From contig JAQMWT010000425.1 of the NCBI GenBank assembly GCA_029834535.1, positions 1 through 33,192 of the forward strand: a stretch of DNA of 33,192 bases. The letters are read 5' to 3'. How positions within the stretch are numbered: position 1 is the stretch's first letter; each line of letters begins with the position of its first letter. This document shows positions 5,401-33,135 of the stretch, in pieces. The notes under the pieces were generated by a model. The model was not told the origin of the DNA, did not search any database, and saw only the letters and a list, made by a program, of their open reading frames with translations. Position numbers and translations under genes: made by a program. The DNA comes from Chrysophaeum taylorii (lineage: Eukaryota > Sar > Pelagophyceae > Pelagomonadales > Pelagomonadaceae).

Positions 5401-6999
5401 ACAGATAATACGAAAGCTCAAGCCGCGGTATCGATGCCCAACCCCGGAGATGAGCGATTCAGAGCCCGATGTGCTCACACTTCGTTGACGCCGCGAGACG
5501 GCAAGACGATCGAAGATGATTTGATTACCCTCAGTTGTTTAGATACGGGTACTCTAACGTTTATAGCCTGTCACATCTACAGGAATCGTGACGGACCGAA
5601 ATTCTCGACGACCATCGGTGTCGATGGAATGGCAGATGTTTCTTATATTTGCCGAGAAATGGTCAAAAAGTTGACCAAAGATCAGTTGATTTTCGATGAA
5701 GGCGAACTTCCGATTAAGCGCAAGCTGTACGGATCAGGATTGAATACGACGACGATCCATCGTTGGATCGCCCTTCGGGTCGCTTTCGCCGACGACTTCG
5801 CTGCCCCCATTGTCGCTATTGTAGCCGATACGAATTATCTGTTCCTGTTGGGAGGGCGCGATATACGAGTTTTAGGAGCCATCGTGGATTTTCCCCATGA
5901 TCGGATCTGTTTTTGTCGAACCCAAGTCGTCTACGGGCGCAAGAAGATTAAAGTTAAGGATGAACGAGTCGATGCACCAATCGTGACCTTTCGGTCTATT
6001 TACGATCGAAATCCGATAACCGTACCGATTTACAATCATCAACACGATGCCTTTCGGCAGAGTCTCGACCTGGTCAAGACTCGAGTTTATGCTCGTTTGA
6101 GCACGATTAAAGATCTCCGAAGCCCGCCGCCGGAACGTAAGGTAGCCTTGGCTACGCGGGGACATGCTACGACCAAATTCTCCCCAGCTCCGGGAGAAGA
6201 CGCGCGAGAAGTAATCGCTTATGCTGCGCGCACGCTTCAAATCGAGCCCGGTCGAACGTACAATCTACCGGTTATTTTGTCGAAACCTATGGAAAGAGGA
6301 CAGGTTTTCGTCGCTACGTTTGCTGAGAACGAGCAGTTGGGAGTTGTCGAAGGAATGTGTTCTTCTTGCGAAGAGCGCAACCGGTCCGCTGCTCGGGTGG
6401 CGGTTACTGCCACGGAAGAAGTGCCGACGGTCGTCACTCAAGGCGAAGTCCTTGCGATTGGTGATATCGTTAGGTACGAAGATGAGTTGAACGTCTCTAC
6501 GATCAACGAACTTACGAAAGAATGTGAAGAAGGATACGACAAGGGGAACCTTTCTTTCACCGTTTCTGTCGCTAGTCACTTGACGCGATGCGACGAATCT
6601 CCCCCGCCGATGCTGCTGAGCACGGTGCAGAAGGACGCTACGACCGCTATGACGGACAAGTCCACCCTCAAACGACCTGAAGGCAGCGACGATTTCGCTC
6701 GAAGGTCGGAAGAAGATGAAAAGAAATGCCGCGAGATCACCGAAGCGGAGATCCGCCGCCGATATGAAAAGGTTCAATGGCTTCCAATCACTTATCGCAA
6801 GGTGGTGATGCTGTTCAGTGGAGCCGGAGGCAGTACTTTAGGTCTCCAACGAGCCAACGAAACGTGTGGGGCGTCGTTTCGAGTCGTGCTAGCACTCGAT
6901 CGTCGGACACCGCCAACCAGATCCACCACAAGAACTTTCCGAATATTCCTGTGGTGCAGCACACATTGTGTGGTCGCTATGTTACAACCTTACGGTTGA
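2494..6999 (+). CDS. Gypsy-A ORF1: gag-like coiled coil, protease-like domain, start of methyltransferase
   Basis: 1501 residues from an ATG. Residues about 1-75 are acidic and low-complexity. Residues 100-174 form a strong coiled coil rich in Glu, Arg and Leu, the likely gag assembly region; no CCHC zinc knuckle is seen. TETSLNY occurs twice (SLNY at 220-223 and 249-252) and LNY at 69-71. Residues about 360-890 are acidic, with an internal duplication (TSGTTPS...PPE followed by LKK-PPE, twice). A retropepsin-like region follows about residue 1017. It has LDTGT (D1017) and also the phase-typical but altered VDGMADVSYI (D1044), with a later LLGGRDI. At 1441-1446 FSGAGG begins a C5 cytosine methyltransferase domain that continues in another frame. 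Residues after about 1470 are out-of-frame tail. The strand and start are secure; which Asp is catalytic is not. Confidence 0.85.
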   Translation: MTQLFWTRSDLGRLERARADMEDDDAAVEQLRYEEPPSRQDETNERNDDDDNDDDEEEHDTEVDEEEELNYNDGKPTERPAGGRSTAPSTRAEPPDATKMNEFYEAHLRALREENERAQERLLKQIGEENERKERLHRNEIKIMREQLRMANARADALQDQASALTRERDELRMPSRPRRANSLEGEFRPSEVPPPARTRAKVRKPRDDDDESSEMTETSLNYDQEQSKSKELTQTKIPTESKNLTETSLNYGSKPSTASNPVPPLVARYDLSSTDTTLGFDDAPELCVNPIYEPRAADDAQSKGPAAATLDAMSLPPDIQVDGTSSPRSIDDASQRITSNDKRAPEYTPIERHVPFGGQFLTDMTSGTTPSSFAAPPDEPTADFFADVLFPLTMADNSCADIFSDEAIADIRSDGVDDKPSETAEKMNTKAEEMKNLITHELPLELSESPGVLLTNEEFKDFQPAYDDGYVIKKDPEHTMRDEYSCRPEPNLDGTISMDNRKMSVPTIRIRAQCFLKKKPPERKEVQFRPRGTELLANRDLIYVWSEVWQKDDEGVDVSIDETIEPVRIDLGAPVAYRDDPEVLGPAELTPERDKDNKSPSRSSRRHRRRRSRDDEYDGGRHQYNSSFLSATLAFTTPCGQQLPLGVTVYPNTDTRTDDAADALAAAAFEDLARPPMDEPPNDVLTNRRSLAQIYEQMSSDELEDSSEELEAPRYWEGDSDSEDEEATLCEPVSALTLFDKSSTDDPPFIFDEEALDAIGLSLDPPETTAGDRTGCEPDMNFCSDSSCAHSTDETMTSASNADDDFTIELTSGTTPSFPADPPETVSITTDRDTDTPPEEKDRFMKKISSVLKCDEDETTWNLQDWWTKARNFVLKKPPEQPRSCRLKAAADTEPIADADEDQQATNEFTDAFWKDEMNDLWEGSFASVNYEDQDPLPALIPSEIVLEEERKPPDKEAAASVMAKTPTTDNTKAQAAVSMPNPGDERFRARCAHTSLTPRDGKTIEDDLITLSCLDTGTLTFIACHIYRNRDGPKFSTTIGVDGMADVSYICREMVKKLTKDQLIFDEGELPIKRKLYGSGLNTTTIHRWIALRVAFADDFAAPIVAIVADTNYLFLLGGRDIRVLGAIVDFPHDRICFCRTQVVYGRKKIKVKDERVDAPIVTFRSIYDRNPITVPIYNHQHDAFRQSLDLVKTRVYARLSTIKDLRSPPPERKVALATRGHATTKFSPAPGEDAREVIAYAARTLQIEPGRTYNLPVILSKPMERGQVFVATFAENEQLGVVEGMCSSCEERNRSAARVAVTATEEVPTVVTQGEVLAIGDIVRYEDELNVSTINELTKECEEGYDKGNLSFTVSVASHLTRCDESPPPMLLSTVQKDATTAMTDKSTLKRPEGSDDFARRSEEDEKKCREITEAEIRRRYEKVQWLPITYRKVVMLFSGAGGSTLGLQRANETCGASFRVVLALDRRTPPTRSTTRTFRIFLWCSTHCVVAMLQPYG
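2695..2706 (+). repeat. Partial shared motif (LNY) in gypsy-A ORF1
   Basis: GAGCTAAACTAC encodes ELNY at residues 68-71. It matches the last 9 bases of the shared motif with a CTA Leu codon, as in the copia copy at 29374. It is short enough that chance is possible. Confidence 0.3.
3141..3163 (+). repeat. Shared TSLNY motif, gypsy-A copy 1
   Basis: GACCGAA followed by ACGTCGTTAAACTACG, encoding TETSLNY. It is identical over 23 bp to 3228-3250 and nearly identical to motifs in the unrelated copia element (23848, 27208, 29374, 31265, 32260). It lies after the coiled coil of the gag-like region. See findings for meaning. Confidence 0.85.
3228..3250 (+). repeat. Shared TSLNY motif, gypsy-A copy 2
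   Basis: A perfect 23-bp repeat of 3141-3163, 87 bp downstream and in frame (29 codons). The intervening sequence (DQEQSKSKELTQTKIPTESKNL) is polar and not repeated. Confidence 0.85.
3589..3630 (+). repeat. Poly-C cassette, copy 1
   Basis: ACGTCGGGGACGACGCC, a pyrimidine tract, then GCA GCC CCC CCC GAC (C8 at 3620-3627) in frame. Related cassettes are at 4926-4967 and 7866-7907. The first two encode TSGTTPS...PP. Codon phase over the C run is the same in all three. Confidence 0.7.
4926..4967 (+). repeat. Poly-C cassette, copy 2
   Basis: ACGTCGGGGACGACGCC, TCTTTTCCTGCGGA, then C7 and GAA. It is in frame and encodes LTSGTTPSFPADPPE. It is part of the internal duplication of the ORF1 acidic region. 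Confidence 0.7.
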
Positions 7000-7919
7000 T
7001 CGAATCTTATTTACCCTACGCGGAATGGTCGTCGTCGATGTGTGTCGCGTCGCCACCCTGCGTACACTCCGCTCTGTGCAACTTGACCTCCAGAGATGTT
7101 GGGAAAGGAGTCACCGCTACCCACTGGACGATGAAATTATGCAAGATGGCTGGGTTCTTCATGTGGTTGATAGAGCAGGAGGTTTCGATTATTTCTTACG
7201 TTGCACGTTTGCACCCGTACGTATACGTCGTCAATTTTTACGACATAACTCCTAGTTTGATGAGCTGTCGCGTGCGATTGTTGGTTTCCAGCCATCCGCT
7301 CCATTTGCGCGCAGTTCCAAAGACTTGCAAGAATATGCAGCAAAAGTTCGCCGCAGCACTTGGCTACGCCGACGAACGACATTTACTTCAGATGAACAAT
7401 TTAGGATCATCACGAGCCGCGACAGACGCAGCTTATACTGTTACGCGTGTCCCGCTTCGCGTAGGACCGCACCGTTCCGATTACAGATCTCTGAATCTGG
7501 AAATGACTTCGGAGTTGCTGACGATGCCCCCTGATTTTGATTGGGCCGGCCTCTCCAAGACGACCTCGTTGAAACACTTGGCGTCCGTCGTGCCACCTGA
7601 CACGATAGCTTTATTAATACTCGATCTGCACAACTCTGTGACCAAGGAATTTTGCCCGAGCGGCGAAACTTTGCCGTCAGCGTTGAGTCCTGCAGACCGA
7701 CCGTTTGATTATTATTTACAAATTGATGAAACCACCCTTCGTCACGTACAAGTTCCGCTGTTAAACACGCGCACACGTGTCATAAGATGGGTGTCGAATG
7801 ATGATCTTCAAGATCTCACCAAATGGAAACCTCCAGAGGTACCGTTGATTCCGCCTGCAACAGATGAGCCGGGGACGTCTCATGCTTCTTCTGCTGCCCC
7901 CCCCGACAACCAAATTTAG
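6777..7919 (+). CDS. Gypsy-A C5 cytosine DNA methyltransferase domain (main part)
   Basis: Would transfer a methyl group from S-adenosylmethionine to C5 of cytosine in DNA. Motif I (FSGAGGSTLGL, 6814-6846) lies in the ORF1 frame. From about 6903 the homology is in this frame: NQIHHKNFP (motif II/III region); ASPPC with the catalytic Cys at residue 95 of this ORF (7059-7061), i.e. motif IV; WLIEQE (130-135) at the motif VI position in place of the usual ENV; CRVR (164-167) at motif VIII; LNLEMTSELLTMPPDF (239-254) as motif IX; and HLASVVPPDTIALLI (267-281) as motif X. All key blocks are present in order. The minus-1 frame change between motifs I and II has no obvious slippery sequence and looks like a 1-nt loss. 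The first about 42 residues of this ORF are shadow. It lies between protease and RT in the element. Confidence 0.85.
   Translation: MASNHLSQGGDAVQWSRRQYFRSPTSQRNVWGVVSSRASTRSSDTANQIHHKNFPNIPVVQHTLCGRYVTTLRLIESYLPYAEWSSSMCVASPPCVHSALCNLTSRDVGKGVTATHWTMKLCKMAGFFMWLIEQEVSIISYVARLHPYVYVVNFYDITPSLMSCRVRLLVSSHPLHLRAVPKTCKNMQQKFAAALGYADERHLLQMNNLGSSRAATDAAYTVTRVPLRVGPHRSDYRSLNLEMTSELLTMPPDFDWAGLSKTTSLKHLASVVPPDTIALLILDLHNSVTKEFCPSGETLPSALSPADRPFDYYLQIDETTLRHVQVPLLNTRTRVIRWVSNDDLQDLTKWKPPEVPLIPPATDEPGTSHASSAAPPDNQI
7866..7907 (+). promoter_or_regulatory. Candidate minus-1 frameshift site at C8 run (poly-C cassette, copy 3)
   Basis: GCC CCC CCC GAC in the methyltransferase frame (C8 at 7897-7904) is followed by a stop 12 nt later (7917-7919). 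A minus-1 slip on C CCC CCC enters the pol frame, which is open from here through RT without a stop. The arrangement is that of a programmed minus-1 frameshift. A plain C indel is the alternative. Confidence 0.5.
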
Positions 7920-15030: not shown

Positions 15031-15356
15031 TAACTAACTAACTTCATATCTCTCCAGAGCATGGGAGCCAGGCCGGACCGTCAGGAGCCAGTCCGGAACC
15101 ACGGGCCTGTAGACGAGGAGTGCCGAAAGGTCGGTCGGCGGAGGGTGATCATCATGCTTGTCGCCATGCGGCGAGGACACCGCGATGTGACTGACAATCA
15201 CATCCAATTCGTCGATAACCTCCCGTCACGCGTTCTATGTTCTATGATGTTTTGTTATCCTTTTCTCCATCCCAGAGACAATTCGGGGTCTCCGTGGATC
15301 GAACACGGGACCTACAGATCTTCAGTCTGGTGCTCTCCCAACTGAGCTAAGACCCC
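15031..15356 (-). mobile_element. SINE-like unit 1: tRNA-Phe head, body, GTTA tail
   Basis: Reading the minus strand: a full tRNA-Phe (15356-15285), then about 240 nt of body, then GAAGTTAGTTAGTTA (15044-15031). The body from GGTTATCGACGA to the tail matches the insertion at 24573-24939 over about 180 bp. Structure (Pol III head, body, simple-repeat tail) is that of a tRNA-derived SINE. No target duplication is visible because the head abuts another copy. Confidence 0.6.
15285..15356 (-). tRNA. tRNA-Phe(GAA) or intact SINE head, copy 1
   Basis: A 72-nt cloverleaf with all stems paired: acceptor GGGGTCT/AGACCCC, anticodon loop CTGAAGA giving GAA, T arm CCGTG-TTCGATC-CACGG. The next base is G, not the A73 usual for tRNA-Phe, and no T-run terminator follows within about 45 nt. 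It may be a gene or the head of a SINE. Confidence 0.75.
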
Positions 15357-15360
15357 ACCG

Positions 15361-15596
15361 TGTGATCATCAAGCTTGTCGCCTCAAGCTTGTCGTCCATG
15401 CGACGAGGAGACTACAATGAGCCCGCGACGTGACTGGCAACCTCAACCACTTCGTCGATAACCTTCCTGTGATGTGCTGTTATCATTTTCTCCATCCGAG
15501 AGACAACGCGGGGTCGTCTCACGCGGGGTCTCCGTGGATCGAACACGGGACCTACAGATCTTCAGTCTGGTGCTCTCCCAACTGAGCTAAGACCCC
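15361..15596 (-). mobile_element. SINE-like unit 2 (truncated)
   Basis: A tRNA-Phe head (15596-15525) is followed by the same body start as unit 1 (GGATGGAGAAAA, GGTTATCGACGA, CGACAAGCTTGATGATCAC). It is cut where unit 1's head begins, giving a head-to-tail dimer on the minus strand. It lacks the distal body and tail. Confidence 0.55.
15525..15596 (-). tRNA. tRNA-Phe(GAA) or intact SINE head, copy 2
   Basis: Identical over 72 nt to copy 1, with the same G after the acceptor stem and no T-run terminator. A 9-bp CGCGGGGTC duplication lies just downstream. Confidence 0.75.
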
Positions 15597-15635
15597 GCGG
15601 ATCATGAGAACACATACGGTAACGACTACTGGTGT

Positions 15636-15731
15636 TAAGCATCGATCACTGCTGTTCTCTTCCTTCACACGTCCACTCGCTACTAAGCATCGATCACTGC
15701 TGTTCTCTTCCTTCACACGTCCACTCGCTAC
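15636..15731. repeat. Tandem 48-bp repeat, two perfect copies
   Basis: The unit starting TAAGCATCGATCACTGC and ending CCACTCGCTAC occurs at 15636-15683 and 15684-15731. Confidence 0.9.
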
Positions 15732-15799
15732 CGCCTTCAATTTCAATTACGGCGATATGATGCCATAATCTCCCTACAGCTCTTCACACATCCACACGC

Positions 15800-15864
15800 A
15801 CGGGAGAGGTCCGAAATTAGTTAGTTAGTAGAATTAGTCGGGGTCGTCGTGGATCGAACACGGA
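15800..15864. other. SINE tail fragment (+) next to tRNA 3' fragment (-)
   Basis: GGGAGAGGTCCGAAATTAGTTAGTTAG on the plus strand resembles the end of the SINE-like body and its tail, in opposite orientation to units 1 and 2. It is followed by a tRNA 3' fragment on the minus strand (box B GTTCGATCC, 15840-15864). Confidence 0.45.
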
Positions 15865-15960
15865 GCTTACACCTTGTCATACATGCACACGCAAGACCGC
15901 AACCGCCTTGAGTTAAGTACGGCAACATAGTGCTTGGACCTCTTTCACGTAGAATTCTTC

Positions 15961-16032
15961 GGGGTCTCCGTGGATCGAACACGGGACCTACAGATCTTCA
16001 GTCTGGCGCTCTCCCAACTGAGCTAAGACCCC
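15961..16032 (-). tRNA. tRNA-Phe(GAA), copy 3
   Basis: A 72-nt cloverleaf that differs from copies 1 and 2 by one base at the anticodon-stem junction. It is not followed by the SINE body, so it is the best candidate for a real tRNA gene. It again has G at position 73 and no nearby T-run. Confidence 0.8.
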
Positions 16033-20910: not shown

Positions 20911-21528
20911 TCAAACTAAGCAGGAAGCGACTTTCCATCGACAAGTATGTGGAGAGTGTTCTGGACGGAATTGTACGGTGGAAGAGTAGCGGAAAGAGTA
21001 ACTTGATGAGATGGTGGTGAAGAAGAGGTGGAATGAACACCGTAGGCGTTCTTGAACTTGTGGAACAAGTTGCAGGAGAGAAGTGTCGAAAAACGATCTG
21101 ATAGTGAGTAGGACACCAGAGGGGACGAATGACCGAGTTGGCTTGGTAGTCACGAATGCGAAATTCTCGTTAATTGATATGACGAGAGGGAGCACTGACC
21201 TCAGGGAGATTAGCGACATGTAATGCGCTAGCGTTGTCAATAAGCAGGGAGATAGCGCGAGCTTGATCACGTGAAAATTGATAAGGGGGAGAAGAGAAGA
21301 TCCTATGAAACCACTGGCATTCATCAGTGGCTGCGCTAGCGGGCTAGCGGCGATGAGTTCGGCTTCCATGGTGCCTTTGGCAGTAAGGGTTTGGCGTTTG
21401 CTAGACCAAAATACGAGGTTGCCAAATACGAAAATACATGCTCCAGAATGAGATCGTAAGCGAGGGTCAGAACTGCCAGCGAAACTGGTATCAGTGAAAC
21501 AAATAATAGGTGAACTAAGATGATGCAA
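20911..21528 (-). pseudogene. Older Ty1/copia RNase H fragment, opposite strand
   Basis: Minus-strand translation CFTDTSFAGSSDPRLRSHSG, then VFWSSKRQTLTAKGTMEAEL: the typical Ty1/copia RNase H block (D-SFAG, RSHSG, W-SKRQ, EAEL). After about residue 70 the homology breaks into other frames. It was the insertion target of the plus-strand copia element: the frame appears to continue from the far side of that element (33131-33171, read on minus) through the AATTC duplication. Confidence 0.8.
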
Positions 21529-21531
21529 TTC
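21527..21531. repeat. Target-site duplication of copia, left
   Basis: AATTC, repeated exactly at 33131-33135. 5 bp is usual for Ty1/copia. Confidence 0.75.
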
Positions 21532-21846
21532 TGCAGAGAAATCTGCTGCCTCTTACCCTTATCCGTCCGTTGAGAACGTGATCTCTTCCTTACCCTTCTT
21601 CTTCCTTTCTACACAATCAAATAGTCCTCTGATTTGTGCCTACGCTCATCATCATGGTCTAGCGCGCCCCGAGGTATGTAGCACTATACACTTTACCTTT
21701 CTCGTGTAGTTCTAGATGCCGCCTGTCGTGTTCTGAGGATATAGGGAACATACCTTTTCATTCCCCGAATTAAATACTTCCAGACGTTCATGATGAGACG
21801 GGATGGTTTCCCAGGTGACTTACCACTGCTTGCTAAATGTTCTGCA
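21532..21846 (+). repeat. Copia 5' LTR
   Basis: 315 bp, starting TGCAGA and ending TCTGCA (a perfect 6-bp terminal inverted repeat). It aligns over its length to 32792-33130 with many differences. Confidence 0.9.
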
Positions 21847-21860
21847 GGTTATGGGCCCAG
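21847..21860 (+). other. Copia primer-binding site, tRNA-iMet half-molecule type
   Basis: GGTTATGGGCCCAG follows the LTR with no gap. It is the reverse complement of the conserved anticodon arm of eukaryotic initiator tRNA-Met (CTGGGCCCATAACC). Drosophila copia is known to prime with a 5' half of initiator tRNA-Met using this region. Confidence 0.85.
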
Positions 21861-22372
21861 GCGGGTCCCTGAGAAATCATGTGTTAAAACGTGCACGTAA
21901 CCTATGGGTATTGGGTCGTTACCGCGCCGACCTAGCCTCGCCACGAAAACACACTTGTAAATACAACGCCATTACCATTGGGCTGTATATAATACTTTTT
22001 TTTTTGCACACGTGATCGTGTAACCTTGTGTGCACCTGTTCATAGCATCGTATTGTCATGTCAATGTTGATGTGTGTGTAATTGGCTAACCTGTACTCTT
22101 GCACACATGTTATGGAATATTTTGGGTACGTCCACTCGTACATTCCATGGCAATGCTTAACAAGCTCCTTGAGAGCACCAGAACTAACCAGCTGCCTGAG
22201 TGACTACGCTTAGCGACACTACTCTGGACTCACAGCTTGCACAGTCGTCATATAGACACATTTTCCATCGAAAAATCGATGAGTGTACATAGACACCGAT
22301 AGACAGACCCCCTTAGAATGTCTAGACAGTGTCAACTGCGTGACTGAACCCACAGGTTCCCCGTCAACTGCT
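21861..22372 (+). other. Copia leader, no gene
   Basis: About 510 bp with a T10 run near 22000 and no convincing frame. The gag frame is open from 22283, but the first ATG is at 22373. Confidence 0.6.
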
Positions 22373-23857
22373 ATGGCAGAACACGCAGCACGAGCCGCAC
22401 CCAAGGCGATCACAGGTGCGGATATATTGAAGCTCGAAGCTCCTGTAGTTGAGTTTCTTAACTTTTTTTTTTGTTGGCATTTCACCAACGAAGCTTTCCC
22501 CCACTTACCTGATGCAGAAGTAGCTCAGCTAACTACTGTCTGTTACGACTATGAAGTCAAGGCATTACGTCCTGAAATCAATGCTTGTCTCTTAGAAGAG
22601 GAACGAATCTTAAATCGCGCGCACCCGAAGGCACTAGCTTTCGACACTCGTGTTCGTGCCCCGGTTACCATGTTTTCGTTAACTGCAGCTGACTGGCACA
22701 CTTACCAGAACACGTACGCTACATTCTTGCATACTTACTTCAATCTTGAAAGTGTTGGAAAACCGGCACTTGCGGCCTGGCCCGCCATCAATGAGATATA
22801 CAACAAAAGCTATTTACCCAACAAGGCTCGAGCTATTATGCTCATCGCCTTTAGTCACTACGAGTCTGTTACGACTACTGATGTGTCTTATTTGAAACAG
22901 CAATTTAACTCTGTTGTTTATAATCCTAACTGGTATGTCCATGTATTTATCGAAGCTGTCCTAGCATTTAGGCAAATCTCTTACCAACTTAACCAGGAAG
23001 AGACTGACCTTCAATTCGACTTTGGCACTCTTTGCAGAAAAATCTATGAAGAGATACATCGGCATTATGCCGATAATACCAGCAACAACCGCTACGATCG
23101 TGGTTGGGTAGATTGGTGTTATATGTACGAAACCCGATCTTCATCTCGACCTGTACCAGAAGCTGAACGATTGTGTCACCCTACCAACCCAAGCTACATT
23201 TTAGAATACGCATTAGACCTTTACAATGTCGTATCAAATGGGTCGAACAAAAGACGCTTAGAACGCCCTGTTTCTTGGCAACCCTATGTCGAAGGTTTAT
23301 CATCTCAACCAAAGCCAAAGTTACTCCTTACACATACTTTGGACTCATCGGACAAAAGTCTGACTCAAACTGCTAACACACTCGCCTTCATCACTTCGTC
23401 CCAACCTGGTACATCTTCCACGTTTAATGCTAGACGCTTGCGTAACTCTAATGATGCTCGCCAGCCTTTCTCTCGCAGCGATTTATCGTATTATCGTCCT
23501 GGTGATTCTTACGTCACCAAGAAAACTGCCGGACAGTCCCATGACCGTCCAATTTATCCCCGCACTTTTGACAGGTCCTCTCGGTCTAACATGAAATTAT
23601 TAGATCGAACAAGTCACACCTTAAACACCCTGCGAGAACAGTGTAGCGAACTCACGAAGCATGTGACAGATAATGATACCACGGCTCAGCTACAACATAA
23701 TATCAACAAGTTATTTGAGACTTTGCTACAATCAGCCGATATCCTGTCAACGACATCTACTGAGGACAACAGTAGTTTACTTCGTCTAAACGAACAGCTC
23801 ATGTTTGCAGAAGACATCATTTATGATGTAGACGTTCATCTATCCTCGACCGAATAG
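22373..23857 (+). CDS. gag: Copia gag-like protein
   Basis: 494 residues from the first ATG (MAEHAARAAPKAITGADI). The N-terminal part (to about 290) is helical, with W-, F- and Y-rich segments as in copia gag; no CCHC zinc knuckle is seen. A polar linker (about 330-400) and a C-terminal predicted helical coiled region (HTLNTLREQCSELTKHV) follow. The frame ends in TAG (23855-23857), which lies inside a copy of the shared motif: STE-stop-SLNY. The next ORF is in the same frame, so a single suppressed or mutated codon would give a gag-pro fusion. Confidence 0.75.
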   Translation: MAEHAARAAPKAITGADILKLEAPVVEFLNFFFCWHFTNEAFPHLPDAEVAQLTTVCYDYEVKALRPEINACLLEEERILNRAHPKALAFDTRVRAPVTMFSLTAADWHTYQNTYATFLHTYFNLESVGKPALAAWPAINEIYNKSYLPNKARAIMLIAFSHYESVTTTDVSYLKQQFNSVVYNPNWYVHVFIEAVLAFRQISYQLNQEETDLQFDFGTLCRKIYEEIHRHYADNTSNNRYDRGWVDWCYMYETRSSSRPVPEAERLCHPTNPSYILEYALDLYNVVSNGSNKRRLERPVSWQPYVEGLSSQPKPKLLLTHTLDSSDKSLTQTANTLAFITSSQPGTSSTFNARRLRNSNDARQPFSRSDLSYYRPGDSYVTKKTAGQSHDRPIYPRTFDRSSRSNMKLLDRTSHTLNTLREQCSELTKHVTDNDTTAQLQHNINKLFETLLQSADILSTTSTEDNSSLLRLNEQLMFAEDIIYDVDVHLSSTE

Positions 23858-23870
23858 TCGTTAAACTACG
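23848..23870 (+). repeat. Shared TSLNY motif at gag/protease border, with stop inside
   Basis: GACCGAATAGTCGTTAAACTACG. It differs from the gypsy-A copies only by TA for AC, which turns the Thr codon ACG into TAG. It sits exactly between gag and the protease frame. Confidence 0.85.
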
Positions 23871-24572
23871 TGGAGCCACAACACCATACTGTCGTTACTG
23901 CTCCCACCCCAACAACAACTCCTCCTACTACAAACAAACAGGGTAATCCTTCCAATACTGTGTCTAACCTCTTTACCGCTTCCGCCATCTCGGCTTTACC
24001 ACCAGCATTATTGTCCTCGCTATCTTCACAGGTCCAATCTGCCCTCAACCTACCATCACAAGCCGAAACCAAAAGGGATGCCGATCACACTTCTCTATCG
24101 TCATTTGACGAAAAGCACGGCATGGCTGATGAGGCTGACGAACCATCACCACCTGTTCAACCGATCATTATTCCAACGAGCCTGCTATTGCTGAAGAACT
24201 TTTTTACAGCCAGCCTCTCCACTACTTGCCCACATTCGGAAAACGCCTTCCTCACCAACTACATGAAGGTAAACAGTGTCCCTCCACATTGCTCTTTTCT
24301 ATATTTTGACTCTTATGCTACCATCTCATTGATGTCCACCTACTATTTCGCAATGCCCAATCATATAATTCCATTGGACTCCACATACGCTCCGATTGTT
24401 ATTCAGACGGCAACAGGACAACAACGGGCATCACACATGATGTTAGCACGCAACATCATTATTCCCCTACCAGATCATCCACAAGTTGGCTACGTTAAGA
24501 TCGACTTCGCTTTATATCTTCAACCAGTGCATGACCGTCATCTCGCTATCCTGAGCATGCTCGAGTGGAACC
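23858..24572 (+). pseudogene. Copia protease region, split by SINE-like insertion
   Basis: In phase with gag after the TAG. A proline-rich linker is followed by SFLYFDSYATISLMS (about 24296-24340), at the place of the copia protease active site (usually DSGAT); Gly is replaced by Tyr. MLARNIIIPLPDHPQVGYVKIDFALYL fits the later protease strands. The frame stops inside the insertion at 24573. Omitting the insertion and one duplication lets it continue in phase to 25284 (see 24950). Confidence 0.65.
24563..24572. repeat. Target duplication of SINE-like insertion, left
   Basis: GAGTGGAACC, exact copy at 24940-24949. Confidence 0.85.
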
Positions 24573-24939
24573 TAACTAACTAACTAACTTCAGCCCTCTC
24601 CCGAGCATGGGAGCCAGGCCGGACCGACAGGAGCCAGTCCGGAATCACGGGCCTGTAGACGAGGAGTGCCGAAAGGTCGGTCGGCGGAGAGTGACCATCA
24701 AGCTTGTCGCCATGTGACGAGGAGACCGCGATGTGACTGACAACCAACTCGTCGATAACCTTCCGTCTTCGCCCCCCGGCTATACCCCGTCCCACTGCGA
24801 ACGTTCCGGCTGCCAACCGGCCCGCCCGGGAGGCGAATAGGTGCCAACCTACGCCGGGAGGGCGGATGCCCTCGCAAGGCTTAGGATTCATGAGGCACCG
24901 TCCTCCATCGCCACCGCAGTCAGCGATCAGGGTAAGGGA
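24573..24939 (-). mobile_element. SINE-like insertion in copia, without tRNA head
   Basis: 367 bp between 10-bp duplications. On the minus strand it ends in a GTTAGTTAGTTA tail (24594-24573). The 180 bp before the tail match unit 1 near the tRNA cluster (about 15044-15235), including GACCGACCTTTCGGCACTCC. The 5' part (24939 to about 24766) is GC-rich, differs from unit 1 and has no tRNA cloverleaf I can find. It is a different head on a shared tail module. Confidence 0.8.
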
Positions 24940-24949
24940 GAGTGGAACC
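24940..24949. repeat. Target duplication of SINE-like insertion, right
   Basis: GAGTGGAACC. Confidence 0.85.
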
Positions 24950-25284
24950 AGACTGATCTTACCACCGTGTTCAATGATCGAGCTGAGCCAAAGCTCAGCG
25001 CTGTCACGAGCCGCATAGACAAAGATGTACGTATACCCATGCACTATGTAGCAGCTAATCTACCCGCTCTCCCTTGTATCACTTACAACATCGCGCGCGA
25101 CAAGCGGCTGGAACTTCGCTCCCTTGCATTTCCTCTCAAGCGATATCATGAAAACAGGGAGCTACTGGCATACTACAATTGCCTACTCCAACGAGTTTTA
25201 CCAGATCGGCCGTGGATTCGCCCTTTGGTTCTCAATCTTCGGAAACAGAACAAATTTGTTCAGCAAAATACGCAGCCATTAAGT
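24950..25284 (+). pseudogene. Copia protease-to-methyltransferase linker
   Basis: Continues the protease frame after the insertion (QTDLTTVFNDRAEPKLSAVT...). It contains a basic-hydrophobic stretch with WIRPLVLNLRKQNKF. It ends in TGA (25285-25287); the same frame goes on directly into the methyltransferase-like domain, so the TGA is one in-frame stop. Confidence 0.6.
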
Positions 25285-25287
25285 TGA

Positions 25288-26640
25288 CTACTCTCACGGC
25301 CAGTTTTTCTCTCACAAGAGTCCAATCTCCGCAAACCCTCTGTCATGTTACTTTGTTCTGGTTTGTCAACTCCGGCGTTCCTGTCTCAAGCCACTAATGA
25401 CTTAGGCTTAAATATCAATGTAAAAGTTGTTGTTGAGTCTGATGATACGCTTGTTCGTATGTTACGCCACCGTTTTCCTACTGTAGTATTATTTGAATCT
25501 CTCCCCGCCTTTATTAACCATCTTCACCTAATCTCACCAGAGGAAAGGTGCACATTCTATTGTGATATAATTGAGATCACTCCTCCCTGCACAAACAGGA
25601 ATTTACTAAAACAGCAAAAGTCAGAAGACTTACACAGCCTGCTGGACGATTCTCTTTTCGACAGCATGCTGTCTGTCATCAAGCTACTCCAGCCCTTGGT
25701 ACTACTGGCTGAGATGACGCCTCCGCATAAGTACTGTCATCAAGACCACATCACCGTGGCTAACCTTATCTATACTACCCTTGATTACTGTGTCGATGTT
25801 GTTGATAGGTTCCCGACCTACCTATGTGGCGACTACCAATCTAGAGAAAGGTGGATATGCATCGCACGCAGATATTCTACTGGACCAATTAAACTATCAT
25901 CGTGGCCCATCCTCCATCCACGCCCCTTCCTAAAGATCGTGGATGATCTACAAGCTATTCCCAAGCGCCTTTGGCTACCTAACCACATATCCAAAGACTG
26001 GATCCGGGTGTTCCCCGATCCTCCATATATATCCGTTCCTAAAACGCTGGCACCTTACTCTCGCACAGGTTCTGCTCAGCTTACTCTGGCTGACCTTGAA
26101 TCCCTCAATATGTTACTGCTTCGCCTTCACTCACAACAGGCTCACGAGCAACGTACTCACTCTGTTCAATCCGAGTGTACGTACCATCAGTTGTGCTTTA
26201 AACGCTCCTCTATGGAGCCATTACTCAATGCAACACATCCTATACACGTCAAGATTTTTACAATCCTCTATAACGTGTTTGCAAGCTTACATACTAACTC
26301 ACCCACTCCTGTGTCCTATTACATAACCGTTTTCGAAACTAACCAGCCGTCACACAGGCTATTACTTACAACCTCATCAACATCACACAACTCCTACTTC
26401 TTAACTGGTGGCCACCATTCCGACGGCGACCTCACCATAGAGAACGCCACCACAAAAAAACTCCACTCACATTAACGCCTTTGGGAGCACGTATACGTTC
26501 ACTGCTTCCGACATCCCCCGCGACCGGGACAGGTCCATATATCTGGAGCCGTTTATGGGTTACTTGTGGATAGTCCAAGCCCTTCCCCAAGTTGGCTCCG
26601 CTACCACCTATGGCACCGCCATACAAAACCTCGTGTCCAG
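25288..26640 (+). pseudogene. Copia C5 cytosine methyltransferase-like domain
   Basis: In order: MLLCSGLSTPAFLSQATNDLG (motif I-like, 25345-25407); VVVESDDTLVRMLRHRFP (motif II); DIIEITPPC with the catalytic Cys codon at 25588-25590 (motif IV); PLVLLAEMTPPH with Glu at 25711-25713 (motif VI); and GDYQSRERWICIARR near 25832-25875 (motif VIII). A variable region follows. An A7 run (26454-26460) shifts the frame by one; beyond it, RSIYLEPFMGYLW and QVGSATTYGTAIQNLV fit motifs IX and X. Spacing matches a roughly 400-residue enzyme. Motif I departs from F-G-GG, so SAM binding is uncertain. It is clearly not a copy of the gypsy-A domain. Confidence 0.75.
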
Positions 26641-27650
26641 ATGCGCTCTCGTGATGCCTGGCTGCCTTACCTACAAGGCCACCGACAACTCTTTCGATTA
26701 CAAGGATTCTCTTTTTGCTCTGGAAGATCATCACCTATCTCATAGTCGCTATATAGGGTACCTTCGTGGAAGTGACCGCAAACTCGGCTCTAAAATCCAC
26801 TCCATGCATGCTCCATTGCCTACCGTCCGAGGGTACGCCAATATTATTTTACTCGACCCCCGCAACGGGAAATTACGCTACCCCACTCGACCGGAGTTGA
26901 TTCGTGCTAACAACCACACCAAACAACAGGAATCTTTCCTCTTGTCTCTACGCCATGACCTTTGCTGTGACATGCTCAGCAATGCTCTGCCTGCCGGTAC
27001 GTACAGCACTCTGTACAAGCACCTTTCGCTCATCGTCGCCGATATTAAATCCCTTATGTTGGACCCTACCTTCCAACATACTGCTGCCGTGACGAAGAAA
27101 TCCTATGTATCCAATTTCATGACCGTTGACCAAGCCTCCACCACGTGCAGCACAGATACCTTGTCTTTGGCACAACCTTTTATGATGTCTATTTCCAGCA
27201 ACTGCTTGACCGAAATGTCGTTAAACTATATATCGTCGTCCTACGAAGATACTCTCGCTACTCGTGATAATGAGGACGCACCTCCAAGTGACCCTGCTGT
27301 GCACCAGGATGACGACGCACCGCCTTCCCCTGCCTTAGACACCGAACTCAAGTTCGATGTTCGGCGCAAACGGCACATTCCCGCTCATCCAATTCCTCGT
27401 AAGTCCCTCGCACACGGATCCACCGAATATCTCAATGCCAAAGAACGTGCTAATCGCTTTCACCGGGTGCATCACTGCCCCGACAACGTCGCTGCCAAGG
27501 CCCCCAACGTACTTGCTCGCCCTGGATTCTCTGCTTCTGACATACCATATCGCGACTTATGCACCGACTGCATCGCACACAACAAGCGCCACCCGCACAA
27601 GCATTTCAATGCGACCAAGCCTTCTTTGAGCAAACCCACAAAGCCGGTGA
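26641..27650 (+). pseudogene. Copia linker and integrase zinc finger
   Basis: In the frame used after the A7 run. An about 190-residue region of unknown function (YANIILLDPRNGKLRYPTRP...) leads to a TSLNY-type motif (27208), an acidic linker, and the integrase zinc finger: NRFHRVHHCPDN ... DLCTDCIAHNKRHPH (His-His-Cys-Cys, about 27455-27600). The frame is lost near 27650. Confidence 0.7.
27208..27230 (+). repeat. Shared TSLNY motif before copia integrase
   Basis: GACCGAAATGTCGTTAAACTATA, encoding TEMSLNY. It lies between the methyltransferase part and the integrase zinc finger. Confidence 0.85.
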
Positions 27651-28262
27651 AGTCTGGGCGTGCGACGACGGCGATGTGACCATCCCATCCGAATGGGAGG
27701 CTTCACACATATCATCGTCTTCAAGGAACTCATTTCGAAATTTCTCTTGGTGTACTTTACACGCACCACCAACGCCACGGAGTTCACTCAAGCTCTGGAT
27801 TTTGTGTATGACTTTTGTCGTACACAACTCAACGTGCACATGCGCACCCTCTACTCCGATGCATTCAAGCCCTACTTTAGCCAGCACATTACCTCCCCGT
27901 ACCGCGTCGATAAGGGCATTCAACTCATTGCCTTCCCGCCGTACATGCACCACTTTAACTTTGAAGTTGAGTCTGCCATCGGTTTCATCGCCTCCGCCTC
28001 CTCAACTCGCCTTCGTTCTCTCCTTAATGCTCACTATCGTGGCGCCAAGATCGTGGAACCCGCTATCATGTTCCCATGGGCGGTGATACACACCGTTCAA
28101 AGCTATAACCTTCTCCCGAACGCCACGCTCGAGCGCATTCATCATGCTATTCTGAGTCCGCAACAGCTACTCTACAACCAACTCAGCACTCCCCAACACG
28201 ATATGCTCAAGATTTTTGGCGCTGAATGTTACCTCCTATTGGAGCCCATGAACACCACAAGT
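27650..28262 (+). pseudogene. Copia integrase core
   Basis: The catalytic segments are in two frames. KAGEVWACDDGD carries the first Asp (about 27645-27680). Then GGFTHIIVFKELISKFLLVYF, LYSDAFKPYF (second Asp) and NFEVESAIGFIA (Glu) follow in the frame open at 27660-28445. Later parts (LSPQQLLYNQ...MLKIFGAECYLL) match the usual end of copia integrase. Frameshifts at about 27645, 27690 and 28262 inactivate it. Confidence 0.75.
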
Positions 28263-30012
28263 GGGAACCGTGCCGCCGCAAATATCTGTATCTCTGTTGC
28301 GCCAACGCACAAAACCCGCTCGTCTCCCCACGCGTCGACCATCTCGCTGACGTCGTCCTCAACCCTGAAAACGGACAAATCTGTGTTTCGTCCAAGCTGC
28401 AATTCCTCTACATGTTGCAGCACCCTACTCCGGATCCTGAACTAGCTCCTCCGCCACACGCTCCTTCCGCGCCTTTCTCGCTCACACCCCACACCACTAT
28501 GCAAGACCATGTCATTCAGAGGGGGACAAGGACTCCTCATCCTCAGAGGGGGCACTCCCCACCTCCTTCAGCTCCTCCTTCTTCGTCCCCTACTCCGGCC
28601 TCTTCTCCATCTTCTGACGCTACCGCCGACGAATCTGGCTCTATGTCACCGCCGCCCTTGCTTCCTTCTTACAAAGACCTTTTTGCACAAGATGACCTCA
28701 TTCTTGTTCCAGGTTCCAAACAGCCTAACACTCGCAAGGCCACTTCTATGAAAACTATCCGAGCCCGGTTACAAGCGTCTACTATTGGTGCTTACAAAGC
28801 CGCTGGTGGCAAGCTCGCCGATTTCCGCTGGGATCTTCGCCACCACTTTCTTACGTTCAAGTCCCCCCCCCTCTCCGCCCTTCATCTCCGTGGTGGTATC
28901 CTCTGGTCTGCTATCTGCTCAGAGGGAGAACATGCGTTGTTAGCTCGTCTTCTTCTCCCGTTGCGTACTGACTTACTTGCCCGCTACCTGCACGTCGATG
29001 GTTACTTCGCCCACGCCAAGTGCGCATCCAGCATCCCAGCTGCAACCTTTTTAACTGCTGATGGTTCGCCTACGTGCCCTATTCCTCAGCCCCTTTTATC
29101 TGCGTTCACTGAACACGCTGCTGCCTTCGGCACTTCTTCCTTACAATATGCACTTACGTACCTGGCGCCGACCAGCTTTATTGCTCACAACTCATCCGAG
29201 TTTGGCGCTACTTCTGCATCTCTGGCTGACTTGGAGGAATACCTACTGGTCTCTACAGAGTTTATCACCCAGGTCTTACGTACCGACCCTACTATCCATA
29301 TCCAACTGGAATCTGCCCCTACTACTCCCACTGACGCTGTTTCCGCTTATCCCGAAGTTGCGCACACTGCCTCGACCGCAACGTCGCTAAACTATAATTC
29401 ACCAGCCATTGTTGGTCCTGACGAATATAAGGTCCAAGAAGCGGACGTTTCCATTGACGAATATAAACTTAAGTGCCTCCACGGTTTGTCGCCTGAAAAC
29501 AGGCACGCCTACCTCAAGGCCATCGCCAAGGAACTCCACGACATTATCCGCTTTGGCTGCTTCAAACTTTCCTTGCCCGACGGTGTCTCTCGTCCTATTG
29601 ACAGCAAGATGGTGCTGAAGATTAAAACAGACTCTGCAGGCAAATACGTTAAGCACAAGGCTCGCCTCGTACTACGTGGCTTCCTAGCATCTCTTGGCGC
29701 CGATTTCTTTGGTACCTTCAGCCCCATGGCCACTATGACCGCAATCCGGGTACTACTAGCTATTGCAGCATACAAGCAATTGCCTGTCTACCATGCAGAC
29801 GTCCCGAACGCCTTCGTTCAGTCTGACATCGATGCCAATGTCTATGTTCAATTACCAGACGGCATCAAGCTTATCGACCCCGATGACGCTAAGTACAAGG
29901 GCCGACGTCTACCGAAACTGCTGAAGTCACTTTATGGACTTAGGCAATCACCATCCCTTTGGAACAAAGAGATAGACGGCTTCTTCCGTAGCCTTGGTTA
30001 CAACGCCTGCAT
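28263..30012 (+). pseudogene. Copia extra domain and reverse transcriptase (N-terminal part)
   Basis: A Pro/Ser-rich linker (about 28435-28680) leads to an about 220-residue domain of unknown function (KTIRARLQASTIGAYKAAGG ... EYLLVSTEFITQVLRTDP). A TSLNY motif (29374) follows, then a clear RVT_2-type reverse transcriptase: IDSKMVLKIKTD, KHKARLVLRGF, FSPMATMTAIRVLLAIAA, HADVPNAFVQSDID (first catalytic Asp) and PKLLKSLYGLRQSPSLWNKE. The frame slips near 30012, just before the YVDD-type box. Confidence 0.8.
29374..29396 (+). repeat. Shared TSLNY motif between extra domain and RT
   Basis: GACCGCAACGTCGCTAAACTATA, encoding TATSLNY. It is the only copy with a CTA Leu codon. Confidence 0.85.
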
Positions 30013-31244
30013 TCGGACTCTTGCCTATATGCTCGAGTATCCGCACATGCTAAGTTCGTCGTATGCAGTCTGTCTGTAGACGACATTGTTATTGTGTCCA
30101 ATGACGACCCTCTTCGTACTGAATTACAGGATGCCCTCCACAAACGGTATGCTGTAGAGCAGTTTGAACCTGTCCATACCCTCCTAGGCATGCGTGTGTC
30201 GCACATCTGACGGCTCCATTTCTCTGGATGTGCAAGCCAAGCTGGATGAACTCTTCGCTGATCACCCAGTCTTGCAGCAACTGACCCCGCTTAAATATGT
30301 CATCGTCCTTCAAGTATAAAGATGGCACTCCCAGCACTGAAACAGAGTTGTACATCAATTCGCACTTTGCCACCCTCCTTGGCAAGCTGGTGTTCATGCA
30401 AGTTGCCTGCAGACCTGACTTCTCGCAAGCCTTGGGCAGATGTTCGCGTGGTATGCATGCACCCACGTATGTTCACGTCCAAATGCTAGAGCATTTGCTT
30501 CGCTACCTCAAGAAGCCGGAAAACCGCTCACTTCGCCTCTGGTTCCATCCTAAAGGTAATGCCATTGAAGCTCACCTTCGCACTGTCTCCGCTAATCGAA
30601 TTGATCTATCCACTGTGGTCGACTACCAACCGCAGGATGTATCTACTGGACAGTTTGACCCCTTAGTTGCCATGGTTGACGCTGACAATGCCCCTTCCTT
30701 AGCACAGGAAGATAGGAAATCTACCACCGGGTTTGTCTTCTATCTTTTCAACTGCCTTATTGGTTGGAAAAGCAAACTTCAACCGATTGTCTCCTGCTCA
30801 ACTCACGAAGCTGAGTTGATTGCCCTCAGTATTTGTGCTGATGAAGCTGTTTGGCTACGCAAGCTGCTGTTGGAACTCTCCTTTGTCGTCAACCCCACCT
30901 TCTACGTCAACAATGCTAATGGTGAGAACACCGCTGACCCTGTTGACTTCGATGACAATGACAACCCAATTGCTGAAGATATGCGCTTCATCCCTCTCTT
31001 GTCTGACAATGCTGCCGCTGTTCACACCTCTAATAACCCAGATGGGTCCTCTCGATCCAAGGCACTGTCGACCAGATGGTTTAAAATCCGTGAGTACATC
31101 TCGCTACAGAAAATACGAGTCCATCATGTTCCCGGCAAGCTGAACGTGGCGGATGGTTTTACAAAGCCACTTGCTGCTGAGTTCTCCACTTTTCGTTCTC
31201 TACTCGGTATGCATCATGCCTCTGACGACAAGCCTTTACAGGAT
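30013..31244 (+). pseudogene. Copia reverse transcriptase (catalytic box) and RNase H
   Basis: SDSCLYARVSAHAKFVVCSL followed by SVDDIVIVSNDD gives the catalytic Asp pair (about 30077-30082). Frames change again near 30205 and 30295. RNase H is in one frame from 30297: MVDADNAPSLAQEDRKSTTG, VSCSTHEAELIALS, SDNAAAVHTS and VHHVPGKLNVADGFTKPL, all expected for Ty1/copia. It stops at TGA (31245-31247). Confidence 0.85.
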
Positions 31245-31264
31245 TGAAGATGCCTAACTCTAGT

Positions 31265-31287
31265 GACCGCAACGTCGTTAAACTAGC
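31265..31287 (+). repeat. Shared TSLNY motif after RNase H
   Basis: GACCGCAACGTCGTTAAACTAGC. It encodes TATSLN then TAG where Tyr would be. Confidence 0.85.
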
Positions 31288-32259
31288 CCTGGCCTTACCT
31301 TCTTTTGCCACAATTTTTTGTGCACGTATACTCACCTCAGTCGCTGACGACGTTCCAGGACGGCCTCAGTATTGACTATGCTGCTTACAGCGAGGAATCT
31401 CTCTCCTTGAGAACTTCCGTGTCCCTGTCACCCATTTCTCTTTCTTTTATGCGAGTGGAACTCACACTGACCTATGAGTCTACTGACTTTTCATTGTTTG
31501 TAGACCTGATCACATTCACATCCATGCGCTTACCCATTACTATACTTTGGGAAGCTGCTCCTGCTATTGTTTTTATTGGCTGCTACAGATGCCCCAAACG
31601 CGAACGTTTCATTTTGTCGCTTTCTTTTACGCATGCCTCAATGATCGGGGCAACCTACATTTTTGCTCACCACATATAATTGAAGTCACAAGCACCTAGT
31701 GAACTCCACTGAAGTGCTGAGTCACCTCACACAGATGACCACAAGAAGAATGGTCACATTCCATCTCAACTGTCACCACCACCGATCAGGTGCCCATACA
31801 ACCTATCGTATGTGCACGTAATGCTACTTCCTTCCAACCCCCTGTGATGGTGCTCAGCTGGTCATATACGCGCAACCATCATACGCACGTATCATTTGCC
31901 AAAGGAGCTACATACTCTTGACTAGCAGTCTAACGCAATATCCGTCACTTGCTCATTTAGTCTTATCAGTAACCGATGCAGCCAGATTCCACCACTCAAC
32001 TGCCATTCGCACTGGATTCCGGCTTATTACTCAGATGCACCTGGATATCTTAACTTTCTTGTAACTCGTGTTCGAACACAGAGTCGACAGCTCAGGCTAT
32101 GCAAGCCATCCATTCAGCATTTGATTACTACTGTTGCTCGATCGCGTGTACAACATCTTAACAACTAGCATCATCCTTGATGATAGAACCGCTATCACTC
32201 TGATGTAATGTTCGGCCACACTTATGTTCAGGCAGAACACTAAGGGTCTTTTAACTTTT

Positions 32260-32282
32260 AAACCAAACGTCGTTAAACTACC
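32260..32282 (+). repeat. Shared TSLNY motif in distal 3' region
   Basis: AAACCAAACGTCGTTAAACTACC, with the core ACGTCGTTAAACTAC intact; the frame that reads QTSLNY stops 4 codons later. Confidence 0.8.
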
Positions 32283-32783
32283 ACACTCCACGCTAGACGC
32301 TACTCTGGAGATATCTTCGCCATCGTTACCTACGTCTTCTGCTTCGCTTGCTGATTTCGACGTCTTGTGCCAACAAGTCGACCAACTCCAGGAAACTCTT
32401 CGAATGTATATTACCGAGGCTGCCATTGCTTCAATCACCTCCCTGGAGAACCGGTTCTTCTCCTACAGCCAACACCCACGTGTTCTATACTGTACAAGAT
32501 CACAGAGCTGTTGTCTCGCTTAACACTCACCGCTCGATCCTAACTCACTGTCTGTTGTATCTGTGTTTTTAAATGTTATGTTCAAAAGGGTCAAAGCGAC
32601 TCTCAGCTCCACCAAGTCCAAGTCCAAGTCCTAAGACCCTTCTATACTCTTGATGCTTCGTATGTGACCCTTCTGTGACCATCAAGACTGTATTCCTCCT
32701 TTTTTTTTTCCCCCTTCATCATCATCTTTCTCAAGAGATGGCTCCCCTAAAGTCGCACCTTGCGCTTCTAAGACTAATCCTTC

Positions 32784-32791
32784 GAGGGGGG
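32784..32791 (+). other. Copia polypurine tract
   Basis: GAGGGGGG directly abuts the 3' LTR start. A T-rich tract lies about 75 bp upstream. Confidence 0.85.
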
Positions 32792-33130
32792 TGCAGAGAA
32801 ATCTGCTGCCTCGTACCCTTATCAGTCCGTTGACAACGTGATCGATTCCTTACCCTTATTCCTTTCTACACAATCAAATAGTCGTCTGATTTGTGAGGTC
32901 CTTCTTAGCGCTCATCAATCAGGTCTAGCGCGCCCGAGGTATGGAGCCATATACACTTTACCATTTCTGTGTATTTCTGATTGCCGCCTGTCGTGTTCTG
33001 GGGTATAAGGGAACATACCTCTTCATTCCCCGAATTAAGTACTTCCAGACGTTCATGATGAGTGACGGGAGTTGGTTTCCCAGGGACTTCACACTGCTTT
33101 TGGTGCTTGTTGGTGCTACTGCTCTGCACA
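32792..33130 (+). repeat. Copia 3' LTR
   Basis: 339 bp, starting TGCAGAG. It ends TCTGCACA, an extra CA compared with the 5' LTR, probably slippage. Many differences from the 5' LTR indicate an old insertion. Confidence 0.88.
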
Positions 33131-33135
33131 AATTC
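33131..33135. repeat. Target-site duplication of copia, right
   Basis: AATTC, matching 21527-21531. Confidence 0.75.

Follow-up and report, generated by a model that had tools for sequence, protein, structure and literature searches.

Does a Ty1/copia retrotransposon carry a cytosine methyltransferase of its own, and what would such an enzyme do for it? The question is raised by contig JAQMWT010000425.1 of the Chrysophaeum taylorii assembly GCA_029834535.1, analysed here over its full 33,192 nucleotides (the window). A Ty1/copia element of 11.6 kb (21532-33130) in this window holds a methyltransferase (MTase)-like domain at the head of Pol. DNMT-carrying retroelements are paradoxical, because cytosine methylation usually silences retroelements. 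The reading favoured here, with a probability of roughly 0.78, is that the domain derives from a captured and strongly diverged C5-cytosine MTase, that it forms the first Pol domain in a group of Ty1/copia elements, and that it would be made by stop-codon readthrough and methylate the element's own nucleic acid. Three copia families of the same genome are compared: A, to which the window copy belongs, B and C.

The domain and its motifs in the window copy are:

25288..27060, + strand: C5-cytosine-MTase-like domain, about 590 aa; read in frame 1 as far as about 26475, in frame 2 from 26441
25348..25374, + strand: equivalent of motif I, LLCSGLSTP (S-adenosylmethionine (SAM) site; divergent)
25426..25446, + strand: motif II, VVVESDD, with a Glu invariant in families A, B and C
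25573..25590, + strand: motif IV, EITPPC, with the catalytic Pro-Cys
25705..25728, + strand: motif VI, LAEMTPPH, with its Glu (ENVPP in family B)
25828..25854, + strand: motif VIII, GDYQSRERW (QxRxR)
26588..26635, + strand: QVGSATTYG block, QVGSATTYGTAIQNLV, motif X of the initial annotation; families C and B do not conserve it
26870..26905, + strand: motif IX, KLRYPTRPELIR
26966..27016, + strand: motif X, CDMLSNALPAGTYSTLY, containing LSNALPAGTY; families A, B and C all keep the N, A and P of NAxP

The initial annotation had named blocks for motifs I, II, IV, VI and VIII, and these are found where it placed them and in order. Its motif X, QVGSATTYGTAIQNLV, is conserved neither in two family-C copies nor in family B and was rejected. 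The start it gave to the domain (25288) holds; its end (26640) does not, because the true motifs IX and X lie at 26870-26905 and 26966-27016 and carry the domain to about 27060. Motif IX reads RYPTRPELIR in family A, RHYSTRELAR in C and RYATLNEIAK in B; motif X reads LSNALPAGTY, IANAIPAGTY and LANAVPHHM, respectively. Four residues of these two motifs (E536, N565, A566 and P568) are invariant across the aligned A, B and C copies. Of the canonical motif I (FxGxG), a single Gly is invariant (G25), and the second Gly is missing in A and C. The frame change near 26441-26475 is peculiar to the window copy. On the upstream side of the domain is a retropepsin-like stretch (from 24308), on the downstream side one like an integrase zinc finger (27461-27580), both recognised by motif; this supports the earlier placement of an MTase-like domain after protease and before integrase in a Ty1/copia Pol.

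By homology and predicted fold, the window domain is a divergent C5-cytosine MTase-like domain. This identity is drawn from the family-B homologues, which exceed the PF00145 cut-off, from the third family, whose domain is 46-48% identical, from a transcript protein (P0001) and from the predicted fold. P0001, a 392-aa protein from MMETSP with 38% identity to a copy of family A, shows that the copia MTase has a transcribed relative in another microbial eukaryote. Two family-B copies match the NCBIfam model dcm (E 2.7e-8 and 1.3e-7) without reaching its cut-off; NCBIfam gave no match for family A, family C or the gypsy copy. A protein database search with family B returned nothing at E<=0.01 among 7995 scored candidates, and viral contigs held no relatives of A4 or A2. 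Profile-profile comparison, made with shallow family profiles, gave a weak signal and is used as support only.

Structure prediction of the whole 643-aa domain by AlphaFold2 (AF2) from family A alone was uninformative (predicted local distance difference test score 27.6). With family-B rows in the alignment, the N-terminal half was predicted at medium confidence as a Rossmann-type MTase, the fold that the initial annotation led one to expect. Foldseek searches with this predicted half place C5-type MTases best and DNMT2 structures first, and the E-values of DNMT2, DIM2, MET1 and DNMT1 differ only slightly. In VIA, applied to the predicted fold, DNMT1 and M.HaeIII head the list. The lead of the C5-type MTases over other SAM-binding folds is within about 1.5 Z. 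The ordered motifs might be a chance resemblance in a copia-specific linker, with no methyltransferase at all. The window copy has no significant direct match in Pfam or in PDB sequence searches, as that explanation would predict, and PDB searches with the window protein, A2, A1 and A4 gave no significant match; set against the family-B homology with PF00145, the homologue P0001 and the fold match, it is hardly credible.

Conservation among related copies bears on whether the domain works. At least 105 places in the genome, the window included, encode the same stretch as family A (108 matching stretches are listed, of which 3 are second fragments and were left out). The initial annotation had suggested looking among these relatives for an unbroken version, and such versions exist: for 14 copies, picked because their frames are open, translation began ahead of motif I and ran beyond motif X; 13 are stop-free over 639-644 codons, and the remaining one (L086) has a stop at residue 642, beyond motif X. 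Catalytic residues were checked in 36 copies (L001-L020, L067-L076 and L081-L086; mostly the best matches, with the window copy among them). The catalytic Pro-Cys is kept in 36/36 (35 by pattern, L068 by translation) and is invariant in families A, B, C and P0001, so the catalytic Cys, whose conservation the initial annotation had proposed to test, is conserved. The motif-VI Glu is likewise kept in all 36, as EMT, with ENV in family B. QxRxR is kept in 35/36 (34 by pattern, L071 by translation), with a stop at that place in L003; the motif is degenerate in family B.

Purifying selection is seen among the unbroken copies. The pairwise ratio of nonsynonymous to synonymous divergence (dN/dS) has a median of 0.17 among the 13 unbroken copies (61 of 78 pairs, those with dS<=0.1 being dropped), a value biased low because only unbroken copies were sampled. 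Amino-acid change, averaged by column over pairs with dS>0.15, is lowest in alignment columns 60-180 and 480-600, which hold motifs IV, VI, IX and X. At 33 of the 105 places an RVT_2 match lies 3.6-6.3 kb downstream in the same direction, and at none upstream, among the 150 best RVT_2 matches; the domain looks like a working part of copia elements. The fold might nevertheless be a dead MTase that Pol retains as a module for structure or for binding nucleic acid. Motifs I and VI are non-canonical and no CpG signature was found (see below), both of which fit such a module, but the retention of Pro-Cys and Glu in 36/36 copies and across three families, of QxRxR in 35/36 family-A copies, and the slow change of the stretches with motifs IV, VI, IX and X make it unlikely.

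How the domain is expressed is suggested by two short features:

25285..25290, + strand: UGA CUA, an in-frame stop between the protease ORF (open reading frame) and the MTase-Pol ORF, in a high-readthrough context
27218..27229, + strand: SLNY, candidate protease site at the MTase/integrase junction, also at 23858 and 29384; its function is a proposal

UGA CUA is given as the human high-readthrough consensus in the available text of PMC4359377. Of 20 family-A loci, 19 retain the hexamer TGACTA (the exception is L002); at the corresponding position, both family-C copies compared read TGA in frame with C as the next base. The protease portion of ORF1 stays open in one frame up to the UGA in L010, L014 and L016, and the MTase continues in the same frame; L013, also translated, carries a further stop. 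No stop of this kind is present in family B, where one open frame spans the protease-like stretch and the MTase (L037). Because the UGA-C is in frame, is kept in 19/20 A and 2/2 C copies and has an open frame upstream, these observations suggest that the MTase-headed Pol is made by UGA readthrough. UGA could instead be a sense codon in the host, or the MTase-Pol ORF could have its own start, so that no programmed leaky stop would be involved. This is rather unlikely, given that UGA-C is kept in A and C though their MTases differ at about half of the residues, that the upstream frame is open into the UGA and that family B has no stop there.

In the copia element the peptide SLNY is found at the Gag/protease, MTase/integrase and integrase/reverse transcriptase junctions, and the gypsy ORF of the window has it twice; it could be a protease site. 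The SLNY-encoding motif may also act at the level of nucleic acid, because its nucleotide sequence recurs, one place (31272) being outside the listed ORFs. Genome-wide there are 618 exact occurrences of the 14-mer ACGTCGTTAAACTA and 0 of a reversed-letter control. The longer motif GACCGMAACGTCGTTAAACTA stands in a single orientation in both elements, at domain junctions and outside ORFs: in the gypsy element at 3141-3161 and 3228-3248, and in the copia element at 23848-23868, 27208-27228, 29374-29394, 31265-31285 and 32260-32280. It has 0-2 mismatches at six places, the 3' part alone is present at 32260, and its peptide ends in SLNY where it is coding. GTCGTTAAACTA is absent from the family-B and family-C loci examined, which are parts of those elements.

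The surrounding element has the features of Ty1/copia: an RVT_2-type reverse transcriptase downstream of the MTase blocks, long terminal repeats (LTRs) of the form TG...CA, a 5-bp target duplication (AATTC on both sides), a polypurine tract and the order protease, integrase, reverse transcriptase, RNase H. Protease and RNase H were assigned by motif alone, and integrase by motif together with rve, which copy L013 matches weakly (E 0.016, under the cut-off). Its parts are:

21527-21531 and 33131-33135: target-site duplication AATTC, flanking both LTRs
21532..21846, + strand: 5' LTR (TG...CA), from local alignment to the 3' LTR, last bases by eye
21847..21860, + strand: putative primer-binding site GGTTATGGGCCCAG, directly after the 5' LTR, read from sequence
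22283..23857, + strand: Gag-like ORF1, 5' part, from the ORF list, named by position
24308..24580, + strand: retropepsin-like protease stretch (DSYATISLM...), by motif; no Pfam match
about 24563..24939, no strand assigned: copy-specific 377-bp insertion, a SINE-like repeat (short interspersed nuclear element), which interrupts the ORF1 frame
27461..28442, + strand: integrase, zinc-finger-like part (27461-27580) and core, by motif; frames broken in the window copy
29573..30007, + strand: reverse transcriptase, RVT_2 (PF07727), E 2.1e-29 in the Pfam search
30285..31247, + strand: end of reverse transcriptase and RNase H in copia order, by motif; no Pfam match
32784..32791, + strand: polypurine tract GAGGGGGG
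32792..33130, + strand: 3' LTR, by alignment, end uncertain by 2 bases

The two LTRs are identical in 275 of 317 aligned columns (21532-21831 against 32792-33099). We take GGTTATGGGCCCAG to be complementary to the anticodon arm of initiator tRNA-Met, which would imply half-tRNA priming like that of Drosophila copia. The 377-bp insertion is missing in all 5 copies compared (L004, L010, L013, L014 and L016); part of the SINE-like repeat recurs at 15031-15200, at the edge of L013 and, by translation, in L049. Elsewhere in the window, 15282-16032 holds three near-identical 75-bp copies resembling tRNA-Phe genes on the minus strand (by eye). The contig belongs to a genome of 70.8 Mb in 697 contigs, and the host is most likely a photosynthetic alga, because the chlorophyll-binding family PF00504 has 84 matches across it.

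The other copia families extend the finding. In this one algal genome, three copia families (at least 105 places in A, 55 rows in B, 123 stretches in C) and a gypsy family (107 matches) carry such domains. Family B (L023-L050 and L066) has a PF00145-positive MTase between a protease-like stretch and integrase; 55 PF00145 rows were assigned to it, and 66 of 121 were left out: 2 are host-like, and the others, not inspected individually, are short or fall beyond the range of the family-B profile. No RVT_2 match lies near any of the 55 family-B MTases among the 150 best RVT_2 matches, and the copia linkage of the family comes from one contig (L037, L066). A fragment resembling the family-B RNase H end lies on the minus strand at 20911-21552, directly upstream of the window's copia element (by eye). 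Family C (L087-L090; contigs C344, C338, C84 and others) is the third copia family; some of its 123 matching stretches are pieces of one copy. MTase identity is 46-48% between A and C and 19% between A and B; reverse transcriptase identity is 114/161 and 73/156, respectively, so that both proteins rank the families in the same order. Since B and C carry homologous domains and the two identities rank alike, capture of the MTase in copia probably predates the split of the families, as judged from these alignments.

The gypsy element of the window (gypsy-A) has its own MTase at about 6700-7800, after the protease, with near-canonical motifs I (LFSGAGG) and IV (SPPC). The strong divergence between the two domains claimed by the initial annotation is confirmed: pairwise z scores of the copia against the gypsy domain are 2.5 (A) and 0.1 (B) and carry no specific signal of common origin. 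Against host proteins, copia A reaches 3.0 (DNMT2-like) and 2.9 (DNMT5-like). The choice between independent capture and ancient exchange between gypsy and copia is left undecided, because the A-gypsy score is no stronger than the scores of A against host DNMTs. The host proteins are a DNMT2-like 360-aa ORF (L021) and a DNMT5-like protein in a 2086-aa frame (L022), named by motif and, for L022, also by database matches. Other host DNMTs may exist, as the search sees exons only and 123 of 474 candidates were scored.

A working model can be proposed for an element that reads Gag-protease, UGA, MTase-integrase-reverse transcriptase-RNase H. The majority of ribosomes would terminate at the UGA and yield Gag-protease, while a minority would read UGA-C and yield the full Gag-protease-MTase-integrase-reverse transcriptase-RNase H protein, which would enter the particle. 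There the protease would release the MTase, possibly at SLNY-like junctions. Using SAM together with the Cys of motif IV, the Glu of motif VI and the Arg residues of motif VIII, the MTase would methylate cytosines in nucleic acid of the element itself, in the simplest case the cDNA before or at integration, and methylation might mark or mask new copies against host chromatin surveillance. We infer MTase activity, its substrate, packaging in the particle, processing and benefit to the element. Self-methylation of cDNA is proposed as the leading idea and is favoured because the retrotransposon DNMTs described in the accessible text of PMC5890265 methylate CG de novo.

Some results weigh against the favoured reading. 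The window sequence scores 11.8 bits against PF00145, where the cut-off is 22, and for this reason the domain is named C5-MTase-like by homology and not as a Pfam member. Against methylation at CpG specifically, the element showed neither CpG depletion (observed/expected 0.90) nor CpG hypermutability (4/94 versus 27/470).

An enzyme that is a C5-MTase by descent might act, like DNMT2, on RNA (element RNA or the tRNA primer) and not on DNA. DNMT2 structures top the Foldseek ranking, no CpG mutation signature was found, and a putative initiator-tRNA primer site, its complementarity being our assumption, follows the 5' LTR. The Foldseek E-values of DNMT2, DIM2, MET1 and DNMT1 barely differ, and VIA puts DNMT1 and M.HaeIII first; the long segment from motif VIII to motif IX might serve in target recognition, which does not discriminate RNA from DNA. 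Action on RNA is improbable. A long shot goes further: the copia MTase could be a particle-borne 5-methylcytosine writer acting on RNA of the element, on the tRNA primer or on a particular sequence tag, such as the motif around ACGTCGTTAAACTA, and not on genomic CpG, with gypsy and copia sharing a self-marking code. If true, unrelated retroelements of one genome would share a code telling element nucleic acid from that of the host.

Under the favoured reading, a captured C5-MTase made by readthrough, the locus makes it testable whether the enzyme benefits the element and what its substrate is. The domain has diverged below the Pfam cut-off yet retains its catalytic residues, which suggests that surveys relying on PF00145 alone can miss such domains. 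A copia-borne DNMT appears to be new. The retroelements already known to carry DNMTs are LINE, DIRS and Gypsy elements, and Copia elements of Symbiodinium are without any DNMT domain, according to the portions available of PMC5890265. In the literature searched, covered by titles and abstract openings and with few subscription papers, no copia-borne C5-MTase is described. PMC12344493 (Mol Biol Evol 2025) places DNMT3 members in 'LTR Copia and DIRS' of streptophytes and dinoflagellates, citing the 2018 paper of de Mendoza et al. (PMC5890265); the wording may be a slip, because the cited paper says LTR Gypsy, and the available part of PMC12344493 describes no copia element.

Among known systems, Sola1-1_Ec32 of Ectocarpus, as presented in the accessible part of PMC12477816, is likewise an algal transposon with a DNA methyltransferase gene for which self-modification is suggested; it differs in being a DNA transposon with a ParB-like protein and an N4-cytosine or N6-adenine MTase, not a C5 enzyme. 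The gypsy-A MTase of the window also follows the protease and is C5-MTase-like, but its motifs I and IV differ and it has no specific similarity to the copia domain. Closer in layout is KnitGypsy-Dnmt3 of Klebsormidium nitens, a C5-MTase in the Pol ORF of an LTR element, present in several copies and under purifying selection (PMC5890265, in part). That element is Gypsy with a recognisable Dnmt3, whereas the window element is copia with a domain too diverged to class here; an in-frame UGA before the MTase, present in the window element, is not mentioned for it in the portions available. SymbioLINE-Dnmt and SymbioDIRS-Dnmt3 of Symbiodinium differ in their LINE and DIRS architectures, and the SymbioLINE-Dnmts are CpG-depleted, which the window element is not clearly (same source, same portions). 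They share with the copia families the presence of C5-MTases in hundreds of retroelement copies, and self-methylation of the retrotranscribed copy has been proposed there as well (PMC5890265).
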